NCBI GenBank assembly: GCA_014896305.1
Contig: JADBKQ010000003.1
Coordinates: 122,389 to 186,388 of the forward strand
Source: Limnochordaceae bacterium
Lineage (GTDB): Bacteria > Bacillota > Limnochordia > Limnochordales > DUMU01
Direction of reading: 5' to 3'
DNA length: 64,000 nt
Each line of letters begins with the position of its first letter. Position 1 is the first letter of the stretch. The notes beneath the pieces are model-generated. The model was not told where the DNA came from and made no database searches. It saw only the letters and a program-made list of their open reading frames with translations. Shown here in pieces: positions 9,394 to 14,589 of this stretch. The translations under genes and the position numbers were made by a program.

Positions 9394-10338
9394 TTACAAG
9401 AGGGTGAAGCGCCGGGTGCCAGAGATCGCGAGGCTGACCGAGTCATACCGGCGGGCCGAGGGTTCAAACATCGGGATGGTCCGCACAGCCAAGACCCGCC
9501 ATTCATACGTCATGCCGCGCTGCCAGCCACCGGCTGCGGGAGTTACCTGGGCCAGGTCAAGTGATGCGCCGGTGGTGAACCATGTACCCACCCGTACGCC
9601 CGTTCCTGCTTCGACGACGTCTACCTGGTAGCCGATGGCCCGGCTGTCCCCTTGCCAGCTGAGGACAGGTAGCTGCGCGGCAGCCAAGCTCGCCTGGTCG
9701 TCCGGGACGAGCAACGTCGGATCGGCCAGAGTGGGCAGCAGTTTGCCGCTGACGCCCGCCGCCGGCCCTACCAGATTCCCCTGATGGGCAAAGACCTCAT
9801 AGGAAACAGGAGTCCCTTCGTCACCCGGGACGAGGTCCAGTGCCTGGTCTGTCGCAACAAACAAAAGAGCGCCAGTTCCCGGCTCGCTCGTTCCCTCGCC
9901 GAATGGTACCTGCTGGCTCACGCCCCCGGCCCGTCGCCAGAGAAACCGATCCACCGGCGTCGCCGCGGGATTCGGCCAGCGCCATTGCAAGACGACGTAT
10001 CGCTCCGACGGCACGGCGGGCCCGGCCAGCAGCGGCCGGATGACCACCCCCAGAGGGGTCAGGGCGGCGGCTGGCGTCGCCTGGTTCACCCATGACTGTC
10101 CGCTCGGGCTGGCCAGCCAGCGGTAAGCGTTGGGAGACAGGGTGACAGCCGTCATTTGCAGCCGTTCGGGAGCGGGCAGGAGAGCGGTGGGTGGCCCGGG
10201 CGGAGCACCTCCTCCCCCGGTACAGCCGGCTACCAGCGTAGCCAGCACCAAGGTCATACTGAACGCCCAGAGACGACTCGCCCCTCGCCCCGTCAAAGTC
10301 CGGGCACAACGCAATCCTTGAGACCTCGGCGTGTTCAT
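9394..10338 (-). CDS. Secreted lipoprotein of unknown function, divergent from the barrel-like pair
   Basis: N-terminal signal with lipobox-like LVAGC; C-terminal region resembles fibronectin-type beta-sandwich segments (PVLSWQGDSRAIGYQVDVVEAGTG, YEWRVLAV). Confidence 0.7.
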   Translation of the reverse strand: MNTPRSQGLRCARTLTGRGASRLWAFSMTLVLATLVAGCTGGGGAPPGPPTALLPAPERLQMTAVTLSPNAYRWLASPSGQSWVNQATPAAALTPLGVVIRPLLAGPAVPSERYVVLQWRWPNPAATPVDRFLWRRAGGVSQQVPFGEGTSEPGTGALLFVATDQALDLVPGDEGTPVSYEVFAHQGNLVGPAAGVSGKLLPTLADPTLLVPDDQASLAAAQLPVLSWQGDSRAIGYQVDVVEAGTGVRVGTWFTTGASLDLAQVTPAAGGWQRGMTYEWRVLAVRTIPMFEPSARRYDSVSLAISGTRRFTLL

Positions 10339-10597: not shown

Positions 10598-11818
10598 ATG
10601 AATCGCTATTTTCGTTCTCGCCGGCCCCCCTCCCTGCTTGCCGGGATTTTGCTTCTGGCTCTGGCCAGCGGTGGGCCATTCGTAGGATCGGCCCTCGCTC
10701 AACCGGCGGTCTCTCCTGCTCTAGACATCCATGGCCTCTTTACGCTGCGGGCCGACCAGTACCACGGGGCCGTCCCCCTCAGCCCTCCCGGGAGCTTGCC
10801 ACCGGGACTGGCGGACAGCCAGAGGCGAGAAGCAGCCTCGGGGCAGTTCGGCTGGGGAGTGCAACAGGTGACTCGGCTACAACTCCGCCTCGAACCGATG
10901 CCCCAGCACGAGCTGGTCCTCACCCTCTGCCATCTGGGCTGGTGGGGCGTGGATCAATACACTTCCGGCACCTACGGAGCCCCGGCATTTCTCAGCGACC
11001 CCTTCCGGGTAGAGGAATTGTACGCCTCCCTGCCCGTGCGCCAGGGAAGGATTTTCATCGGGCGGCAGTACTTCCAGCTCGGCCCCATGGGCCTGCTGGC
11101 CGCGACCCCCCTGGGGGACGAGCAACTCCCCAGCGCGGTGACCGGGCTGCTGTGGGAAGGTCCGCTCCTCTCCGCTTGGAGCGGAGCGGCCGTGGTCGCC
11201 CGCCTCGCGGTCGAGCCGCCGGACGAAGCTCACCCGCAAGCACGCCCTCACGACCTGTTGGGGGTCCGCTTGACTCCTCCTCGACGCAATGTGGGGATCA
11301 ATTTGTTGCTCGCTGGGCCCCAGGGTGAACAGGGACTAAGCCTGGACTGGGACCAGCGCGAGGGTCTGCGTTCCCACTCCGCCGAAATCGCGGTGGCTCG
11401 CCTGCCCGACTCCAACCGCTGGGTCTGGGCGGCGGCCGGGCGTAGCCAGCCAGCCCTCGCCTCGGATCCAGCTCCCTCGTCTCCTTCCTCTGGCTGGTCC
11501 TGGCAGTGGGCCGCCCTCGACCCCGCCTACCCGGTGACCCTCACCCAACTGCGCGACCAGGGTGGCGATCTTCCCTTTGCCCCGGGAGAAGCCGGCTGGG
11601 AACTGCGCTGGGACCAGCCGGTGCGGCCCGGGATCGCGGCCATGGTCAGTTGGCGACTGCGGCTGCAACTCACCGGCAAACCTCCCATCAATCAGCTGGA
11701 GGCAGGCTGGACCTGGGCTGCCGGGGCGGGGCTCACCCTGGCCGGCAGCTACCAGCATACCTGGACATCCCCTCTCGGTTACGGACGGGCTCGAGTGGAG
11801 GTACGCTATGGGTTCTAA
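10598..11818 (+). CDS. Putative outer-membrane beta-barrel (porin-like) protein, paralog 1
   Basis: Signal peptide (LLAGILLLALASGGPFVGSALAQ); alternating amphipathic strands; GRQYFQLGPMGLLAATP motif shared with next ORF; C-terminus ARVEVRYGF ends in Phe. Confidence 0.6.
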   Translation: MNRYFRSRRPPSLLAGILLLALASGGPFVGSALAQPAVSPALDIHGLFTLRADQYHGAVPLSPPGSLPPGLADSQRREAASGQFGWGVQQVTRLQLRLEPMPQHELVLTLCHLGWWGVDQYTSGTYGAPAFLSDPFRVEELYASLPVRQGRIFIGRQYFQLGPMGLLAATPLGDEQLPSAVTGLLWEGPLLSAWSGAAVVARLAVEPPDEAHPQARPHDLLGVRLTPPRRNVGINLLLAGPQGEQGLSLDWDQREGLRSHSAEIAVARLPDSNRWVWAAAGRSQPALASDPAPSSPSSGWSWQWAALDPAYPVTLTQLRDQGGDLPFAPGEAGWELRWDQPVRPGIAAMVSWRLRLQLTGKPPINQLEAGWTWAAGAGLTLAGSYQHTWTSPLGYGRARVEVRYGF

Positions 11819-12992
11819 CGCCAGAGTGGGCCGAAGGAGTTCACAAGCGGTCATCGTTCCGGTCGGTTGCCAGCTTTTCCGAGCTCTTTTTGCCGGGATT
11901 CTGATGTTGGGGGGCTGTGTGGCCGGAGTCAAGGCCGAGTCCGTCTCTTCGCCGCTCGCCTGGAACGGAGAGTGGATTCTGACGTTGGCGGCTCCGCCGA
12001 CGTCCGCCAGTGTCACCTTGAACCTTTCTGCGGATTGGGTGCGGGCGCTGGCCGTCACCGACCAGCCCAGCACTGGCAGCAAGGCTCGCTGGGTCGGGCA
12101 GCTGCACGTGCAGGCCCGCTACCAGCAAGAGGCGGGAGTAGACGAGAGCACAGGGGGCAACGGCCCGCTCCTCCGGACGGATGAACTGTGGCTGCAACTA
12201 TCGCGCCAGGGGGACTCCTCCTCCGCCTGGTTGCGGCTAGGGCGGCAACGCTTTCAGGCCGGCCCCGTCGGTCTGCTGGTGGCCAACCCGTTCGACGCCA
12301 TTGCCGCCGCCCAGGCCGGCCTCTCCTTCCCCCGTCGGCATCTGATGCTGACGGGAGTGGATGGCCGCCTCGACACGAGCTACGTTACGTACCTGCCCTA
12401 TGTGTGGGATCAGGATAGCTATCGCTGGCTGCGCGTCCAGGGCCCACGGGCCGGCTTCACTTGGCTCGTCGATGGGTTGGGCAGCGAACAGGGGCTGTCT
12501 TGGGACATGCGCTCCACTGGGCCAGAACGCAGTTGGGTGGCGGAAGTCGCACTCTTTCGGGCCAGCCGCGGGGCGGACAACTATCAAGGCTGGGTAGGGG
12601 CGGCTGTGGCCAGCCTGGATCTCGCAGGCAGCGAAAGGTACAAGGTCAACCTGAACGTCGGCAGTGTCCACCCAGGATTTACCCCTATGGCGTCGAATCT
12701 GGCCTCGGCAGGGGGAAATCTCAACTTCAAGAACGGCAGTACAGGGCTGGAGCTCAACACGAGCTGGCTGGCACGCCCCCAGTGGCTGCTGGAGAACGAA
12801 AGCTCCCTGTTGTGGCGGTTTGGCTGGCTGGACGCCCAAACGCTTTTCCGGTTCACCCAGGCGTGGCGGCCAGGTCTCCAGACGGTCTGGGAGTTGTCCT
12901 GGCGGCCTTCCTCCCCCATTGTCACCCCCCGGTCGCCCCCCGACGGGCGAGCGCAGCTGGCAGGGCAGTGGCAGCTGCGCTGGCAGTTCTGA
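11808..12992 (+). CDS. Putative outer-membrane beta-barrel (porin-like) protein, paralog 2
   Basis: Start ATG 11808 overlaps the upstream stop (ATGGGTTCTAA); signal peptide; GRQRFQAGPVGLLVANP motif; C-terminus GQWQLRWQF ends in Phe. Confidence 0.6.
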   Translation: MGSNARVGRRSSQAVIVPVGCQLFRALFAGILMLGGCVAGVKAESVSSPLAWNGEWILTLAAPPTSASVTLNLSADWVRALAVTDQPSTGSKARWVGQLHVQARYQQEAGVDESTGGNGPLLRTDELWLQLSRQGDSSSAWLRLGRQRFQAGPVGLLVANPFDAIAAAQAGLSFPRRHLMLTGVDGRLDTSYVTYLPYVWDQDSYRWLRVQGPRAGFTWLVDGLGSEQGLSWDMRSTGPERSWVAEVALFRASRGADNYQGWVGAAVASLDLAGSERYKVNLNVGSVHPGFTPMASNLASAGGNLNFKNGSTGLELNTSWLARPQWLLENESSLLWRFGWLDAQTLFRFTQAWRPGLQTVWELSWRPSSPIVTPRSPPDGRAQLAGQWQLRWQF

Positions 12993-13029: not shown

Positions 13030-13752
13030 ATGATGGAGCATCAGACCTTCAGACCGGGGCGAGTCATAGCAGCGCTGGTCGTCTTGTTCACCTGGGCGGG
13101 GTGGACCTGGCCAGGTACTCCTGAGGTATCGGCGAGCGGAGCGCTGACCGGGCATCGGTTAATGATCGATCCCGGCCACGGCGGTAGCGACCCGGGCGCG
13201 GTAGGCCCGACCGGGCTGCGAGAAGCGGATGTCAATTTGCGGGTGGGTCTCAGCCTGCGGAGCCTTTTGGTCCAGTACTCTGGGGCCACCGTCTACATGA
13301 CCCGGGACAAGGACATGGACGTGACTCTTGAACAACGTACTACGCAGGCTAACCAGCTGGGCGTGGAGCGGTTCATCTCCATTCACCACAACGCCTCCTC
13401 CAACCAGCAGGTCAATGGCGTGGAGACCTACGCGTACACGTACGCCAGCGCGGACAGCTTGGACCTACGGGACAAGGTCTACGGCGAGCTACTCAACTGG
13501 AGCAGGTTGCCCGGCCGTGGGCCCAATACGGCGAACTTCTGGGTCCTGAAGTATACACAGATGCCTGCCATTTTGACCGAAGCGTCCTTCATCAGCAACC
13601 CTTACCAGGAGTCCCGGCTACGGGATCCCGACTACAATTTCCGAGAAGCCCTCGCCATTTACAAAGGAATTCTGGCCCACTTCGACACGCGGGACGCGGT
13701 GCCTACCCAGGATCCGGCATCTACCTGGGAGTTTCTGCGTCACTTGCCGTAG
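13030..13752 (+). CDS. N-acetylmuramoyl-L-alanine amidase (Amidase_3), secreted
   Basis: MIDPGHGGSDPGAVGPTGLREADVNLRVG...SIHHNAS...ILTEASFISNP; signal sequence; start ATG 13030 after GGGAGG. Confidence 0.9.
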   Translation: MMEHQTFRPGRVIAALVVLFTWAGWTWPGTPEVSASGALTGHRLMIDPGHGGSDPGAVGPTGLREADVNLRVGLSLRSLLVQYSGATVYMTRDKDMDVTLEQRTTQANQLGVERFISIHHNASSNQQVNGVETYAYTYASADSLDLRDKVYGELLNWSRLPGRGPNTANFWVLKYTQMPAILTEASFISNPYQESRLRDPDYNFREALAIYKGILAHFDTRDAVPTQDPASTWEFLRHLP

Positions 13753-13796
13753 CCTCAGGCGGGCTGTCGCCTAAAGTTGACCGGAAGGGGAACCGG

Positions 13797-13836
13797 CGGA
13801 GCTGAACCGACCGAGGTCTGCTCCGTCCTTTTTATT
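13797..13836 (+). terminator. Probable intrinsic terminator after first amidase
   Basis: CGGAGC...GCTCCG stem with internal GACC/GGTC followed by CCTTTTTATT. Confidence 0.5.
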
Positions 13837-13890
13837 GCCTGGCTGGGCAGTGCAACCCGCTTTGATCGCCTGGATGGGCGGTATTACCCG
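13836..13890 (+). repeat. Two imperfect tandem copies, period 31 nt
   Basis: tgcctggctgggcagtgcaacccg (13836-13859) versus cgcctggatgggcggtattacccg (13867-13890). Confidence 0.6.
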
Positions 13891-13926
13891 GCGGGCAAAC
13901 ACCATACAGTTAGGTAAAAGGAGGGG

Positions 13927-14589
13927 ATGAAGATGTTGTCATACCGTCGGAACATCAGCATGCTCGTGGCAGTGATGGCTGTGGTGGTGGCCAGTGTGGG
14001 GTGGTTGGGCTGGCCGGCAGCTGCCGGCGGCGGGCTGACCGGCAAGCTGTTCGTGGTTGACCCTGGCCACGGAGGCTCCGATCCAGGCGCGGTCGGACCC
14101 ACCGGGTTGCAGGAAAAGGAGGTCAACCTGAGAGTCGGCACCGTGTTACGCAACTGTCTGGTGGAGTATGGAGGGGCGCAGGTGGTGATGACCCGCACCT
14201 CGGATGTGGATGTCAGCCTGGATGGGCGAGTAGCCATTGCCAATAACTGGGGGGCGGACCGCTTTATCTCCGTTCACCACAATGCGGCCAGTGATCCGTC
14301 TGTCAATGGCACCGAAACGTACGCGTACACCTACGGAAGCTCCGCCAGCTTCGATCTGCGTGATAAGGTCCATCGCCAGCTGCTGGCCTGGGGTGGGCTG
14401 CCGGATCGGGGCGCACGTACTGCCAACTTCTACGTCCTGAAATATACCACCATGCCGGCCATCCTGACAGAGGCTTCGTTCATCTCCAACCCCTATGAAG
14501 AAGCCCGTTTGCGGGATGCCAGTTACACGTGGAGGGAAGGGTATTACATCTATAAAGGCATCGCTGACCATTATGGCGTCGCCTACTAG
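13927..14589 (+). CDS. N-acetylmuramoyl-L-alanine amidase (Amidase_3), tandem paralog
   Basis: VVDPGHGGSDPGAVGPTGLQEKEVNLRVG...SVHHNAASDPSVNGTETYAYTYGS; closely similar to 13030-13752. Confidence 0.9.
   Translation: MKMLSYRRNISMLVAVMAVVVASVGWLGWPAAAGGGLTGKLFVVDPGHGGSDPGAVGPTGLQEKEVNLRVGTVLRNCLVEYGGAQVVMTRTSDVDVSLDGRVAIANNWGADRFISVHHNAASDPSVNGTETYAYTYGSSASFDLRDKVHRQLLAWGGLPDRGARTANFYVLKYTTMPAILTEASFISNPYEEARLRDASYTWREGYYIYKGIADHYGVAY

Follow-up and report, generated by a model that had tools for sequence, protein, structure and literature searches.

OmpM is the described porin of diderm Bacillota, a group in which the passage of solutes through the outer membrane, as well as its coordination with the cell wall, has been little studied. 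The OmpM proteins of Negativicutes are outer-membrane barrels that carry an N-terminal SLH domain and a periplasmic stalk. Other barrels that are relevant to the present work include the Occ/OprD channels and the Campylobacter MOMP, which have 18 strands and end in Phe, and the DUF1302 (PF06980) barrels, which also have a C-terminal Phe. The Occ/OprD pores are lined by a row of basic residues. The Occ family is defined by an 18-stranded barrel, whose constriction is formed by the inward-folded loops L3 and L7 (PMC3260308). In E. coli, the outer-membrane protein NlpD is tied genetically or functionally to AmiC, an Amidase_3 enzyme. The diderm envelope of the class Limnochordia itself has already been established (PMC11456536).

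Here, we analyze two overlapping genes, designated A and B, of a Limnochordaceae genome, whose predicted products resemble such barrels. The window (i.e., the whole stretch of 64,000 nucleotides that was analyzed) contains the following features at this locus:

9394..10338, minus strand: predicted lipoprotein, divergent, upstream of A, with an LVAGC lipobox recognized by eye
10598..11818, plus strand: ORF A, 406 aa, predicted 18-stranded outer-membrane barrel with a C-terminal Phe and a signal-peptide-like N-terminus
11808..12992, plus strand: ORF B, 394 aa, paralog of A; an 18-stranded outer-membrane barrel is predicted with lower model confidence
11808..11818, plus strand: ATGGGTTCTAA, the 11-bp overlap between the end of A and the start of B
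13030..13752, plus strand: secreted Amidase_3 (N-acetylmuramoyl-L-alanine amidase), starting 37 bp past the end of B
13927..14589, plus strand: second secreted Amidase_3, in tandem, for which CwlD is the nearest NCBIfam model, with the cut-off missed

The overlap ATGGGTTCTAA, the motifs GRQxFQxGPxGLLxAxP and EQGLS(L/W)D shared by the two proteins, and their Phe-ended C-termini (VEVRYGF and WQLRWQF) are all present as the first-pass annotation of this DNA had described them. The sporulation genes that it had reported in the window were found as well, namely SpoIIP, SpoIIR, SpoIIGA, and two sporulation-type sigma factors. Shine-Dalgarno-like sequences could be read ahead of both starts (GAGGAGGT for A and GGAGG for B), and the N-termini of both A and B, as judged by eye, consist of a hydrophobic segment followed by an A-x-A site. 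A promoter scan upstream of A found no promoter. It is probable that A, B, and the periplasmic amidase are co-transcribed. The divergent lipoprotein had no match in Pfam, and lipoprotein-like genes of similar make-up were observed at the same position in two relatives.

Predicted fold and paralogy of A and B

Structure prediction, which the first-pass annotation had suggested as a check, returned 18-stranded barrels for both proteins. The AlphaFold2 model of A, which was built with 29 homologs, has a pLDDT of 85.5 and a pTM of 0.81, and the model of B, built with four sequences only, also matches porins but is of low confidence (pLDDT 62.7). When the model of A was compared with PDB structures, all of the best 50 matches listed were outer-membrane barrels (E-values from about 2e-10 upward), led by the Campylobacter MOMP and the Pseudomonas Occ/OprD channels, and OmpM1 of Veillonella was ranked 17th. 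TM-scores of these matches were mostly 0.4–0.6, with an identity of about 7–15% (0.5–0.6 and 9–15% for known porins), indicating a common architecture rather than close kinship, so that the shared architecture is the sole basis for transferring function. When the PDB was searched by sequence, no clear or convincing relative was revealed. Neither A and B nor 29 family members matched a named porin family of Pfam or NCBIfam by sequence; none of these 29 is covered by a Pfam model or, convincingly, by an NCBIfam model, and the few sub-threshold matches each concern one member.

The C-terminal Phe, which corresponds to an aromatic beta-signal, is present in all members first collected (30/30). The first-pass annotation had also proposed alternating amphipathic strands; hydrophobic alternation along the strands of A exceeds that of shuffled sequences (p = 0.03), but modestly when this measure is taken alone.

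We then mapped sequence conservation on A. The best conserved long loop is L7 (mean top-residue frequency 0.52), followed by L3 (0.44) and L2 (0.42), both of which hold invariant glycines; the short L5 is also highly conserved, and most turns, like L1 (0.25), vary. Invariant or near-invariant residues of L3 include G162, P163, G165, and L166, and strongly conserved motifs are located in L3 (the GRQxFQxGPxGLL region) and in L7 (GFxPxxSxLASxxG). The family of A is conserved at the same two positions, L3 and L7, at which the loops of Occ/OprD channels turn inward. Several conserved charged residues in or near the strands (E140, R202, R224, E244, D250, and E263) would fit a polar lumen. With regard to the basic row of Occ/OprD pores, R202 and R224 are the only near-invariant Arg residues of the family. 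A and B differ from Occ/OprD in having no OprD Pfam match, an identity of 9–15%, an amidase neighbor, and Bacillota hosts. Like OmpM, they are predicted outer-membrane barrels of diderm Bacillota, and the barrel of OmpM1 is among the structural matches, but they have neither a periplasmic stalk nor an N-terminal SLH domain, whose absence from both proteins had already been noted in the first-pass annotation.

The similarity between A and B is not due to chance, as it was detected by both BLASTP (E = 7e-10) and profile–profile comparison with hhalign (probability 99%, E = 7e-18). In a maximum-likelihood tree of 39 family members, parts of which are uncertain because of two long branches, two groupings link A and B to a tandem in another taxonomic family, f104: A joins its upstream barrel (support 96/85) and B its downstream barrels (support 98/95). 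Considering that A and B group separately with the members of this tandem, the duplication that gave rise to them is older than the split of the two taxonomic families. As channels, the two paralogs would probably differ in the solutes they pass.

Occurrence of the family and its genomic context

A search of the genome for outer-membrane assembly genes, also suggested by the first-pass annotation, detected two BamA-like Omp85 proteins, Skp/OmpH, LpxD, LpxA, LpxI, a FabZ-like protein, an MsbA-like exporter, LptB, two LptF/G permeases, and an 850-aa LptD-like protein, with most of these envelope genes on one contig. That annotation had named a soluble fold, combined with the lack of bamA and every other outer-membrane assembly gene, as the outcome opposed to its reading; we found a predicted barrel and the machinery itself. 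The second, shorter BamA-like Omp85 (L013:7723-9510, contig C9) is located on a small contig apart from the LPS cluster. A PF04453 search for LptD in this genome gave no hit. However, the absence of LptD was not accepted because the 850-aa protein (L012:6411-8963, contig C57) adjoins LptF/G and has a sub-threshold match, to LptD_N only. It appears that LptD of this lineage is easily overlooked by profile searches.

To describe the distribution of the family, 399 Bacillota genomes were sampled, 103 of which contain Omp85 and 296 of which have none. A profile of 8 sequences detected the family in 28 genomes and a profile of 29 sequences in 37; removal of two marginal hits (G359 and G380, E-values 5e-4 to 8e-4, left uncounted) and addition of one genome that the second profile had missed resulted in 36 clear carriers. 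All 36 have Omp85, and no carrier was found among the 296 Omp85-negative genomes. Counted per genome, such co-occurrence would arise by chance with a probability of about 3e-24; with a single count for each of the 11 carrying families, the probability is about 1e-7, the latter figure being fairer because the genomes are related. SpoIIR is present in 35 of the 36 carriers. A tie with sporulation is not claimed here, since its P-value of 1.6e-4 per genome becomes 0.15 per family.

We also considered whether the family is specific to Limnochordia. A profile of close relatives (A2) detected it in 3 of 73 genomes of the class, but the wider profiles A3 and A4 reached other Bacillota families, at least ten in number, and a restriction to the class was therefore rejected. 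Neither this spread nor the amidase neighbors had been described in the first-pass annotation. Four marginal hits in other Limnochordia (L113, L114, L115, and L116) were not counted, as these DUF1302-like barrels adjoin LolA_like genes and the two that were scanned match DUF1302; an apparent RND-type transporter gene lies alongside. In addition, a distant family member (L112:1282-3376 in genome G024, E = 1e-23) is followed by a Phe-ended, exported-looking protein of 284 aa without a Pfam match.

An Amidase_3 gene directly adjoins the barrel gene on the same strand at 32 of the 38 loci with enough flanking sequence. It is located downstream at 29 loci and upstream at three (family f23), and was observed in 10 of the 11 carrying families. 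No adjacent amidase was found in f110 and in one genus of f35. Only six genes of the Limnochordaceae genome match Amidase_3-type amidases, so adjacency by chance is expected at well under 1%. The loci are not independent, as synteny can be inherited, yet other neighbors vary between families while the amidase stays. Both amidases of the window match PF01520 (166.5 and 172.3 bits, cut-off 27). The second scored 112.6 bits against the CwlD model TIGR02883, below its cut-off of 221.55, which no gene of the genome passes. Relatives have one or more Amidase_3 genes where the window has the tandem at 13030-14589. In f110 and f35 (L046, L048, L054, and L092), a MurC/Mpl-type ligase-like gene, recognized by eye, is located near the barrel gene, suggesting a possible link with cell-wall metabolism. 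No barrel–amidase pair of this kind in Bacillota was found in the part of the literature covered. New here are the amidase adjacency and the age of the A/B duplication, in a porin-like barrel family that carries no name in the protein-family libraries used; the diderm envelope of Limnochordia is known.

Possible roles of the barrels and the adjacent amidase

The first-pass annotation had placed A and B in a divergent porin-like family of a diderm sporulator. This proposal is supported by the barrel models, the porin matches, the C-terminal Phe of all members first collected, the BAM and LPS genes that accompany endospore genes in this Bacillota genome, and the co-occurrence with Omp85. The fold and outer-membrane location of A and B are strongly supported by these computations, to which homology and amidase synteny add further computed observations; insertion into the membrane is a prediction. 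In our opinion, A and B are likely to be selective diffusion channels of a porin-like family that are made along with a peptidoglycan amidase, with pore function and selectivity inferred from the architecture. Both proteins would be exported by a signal peptide and inserted by the BamA machinery via the C-terminal Phe beta-signal. They would then fold as 18-stranded barrels whose L3 and L7 turn inward and narrow the pore as in Occ/OprD, allowing small polar solutes to cross the outer membrane selectively. As for the amidase, channel supply and peptidoglycan opening may be provided jointly, or the channels may handle solutes released from the wall.

In the main alternative, the barrel would serve mostly to anchor the adjacent amidase at the outer membrane or to regulate it, as a functional analog of NlpD–AmiC, so that the cutting of peptidoglycan keeps step with the movement of the outer membrane at division or spore engulfment. 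NlpD, likewise an outer-membrane protein tied to an Amidase_3 enzyme, indicates that control of an amidase from the outer membrane is possible (PMC5533458). Such a role is consistent with the retention of Amidase_3 in 10 of the 11 carrying families though other neighbors differ, with the small number (six) of such genes in the genome, and with SpoIIR in most carriers. However, NlpD is a LytM-type lipoprotein and not a barrel, and no domain known to bind peptidoglycan or amidases, such as LytM, LysM, or SLH, was found in the barrels. Moreover, conservation is strongest at pore-loop positions, f110 and one f35 genus retain the barrel without an adjacent amidase, and counting by family leaves no significant tie with sporulation (P-value = 0.15), which makes this role rather unlikely, if still worth considering. 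We regard as similarly doubtful a Bacillota-specific module of barrel and secreted amidase, whose joint action would link the outer membrane with the cutting of peptidoglycan at division or spore engulfment and take the place of the NlpD-type link of Proteobacteria.

Export of a polymer or lipid, as by AlgE or by a DUF1302 partner of LolA_like proteins, appears improbable. AlgE is among the structural matches, and the family resembles DUF1302 barrels in a G[RK]Q-x-x-x-G region, the C-terminal Phe, and a profile similarity over 98 columns (96%). Nevertheless, A and B have no PF06980 match, and while the DUF1302 barrels found here adjoin LolA_like genes, neither such a gene nor a polymer synthase is conserved beside this family, whose constant partner is the amidase. 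The sporulation genes elsewhere in the window could point to soluble beta-rich or spore-surface proteins instead, but the confident barrel model with its porin matches, the outer-membrane machinery of the genome, and the restriction of carriers to Omp85-positive genomes make this highly improbable.

The diffusion-channel reading adds a second porin-like family to the diderm Bacillota, one that is without SLH and was found here only in Omp85-positive genomes, and that can serve as a concrete marker for the physiology of the outer membrane in Bacillota. In addition, the amidase adjacency kept over many lineages connects this membrane with the remodeling of peptidoglycan in a way that can be tested.
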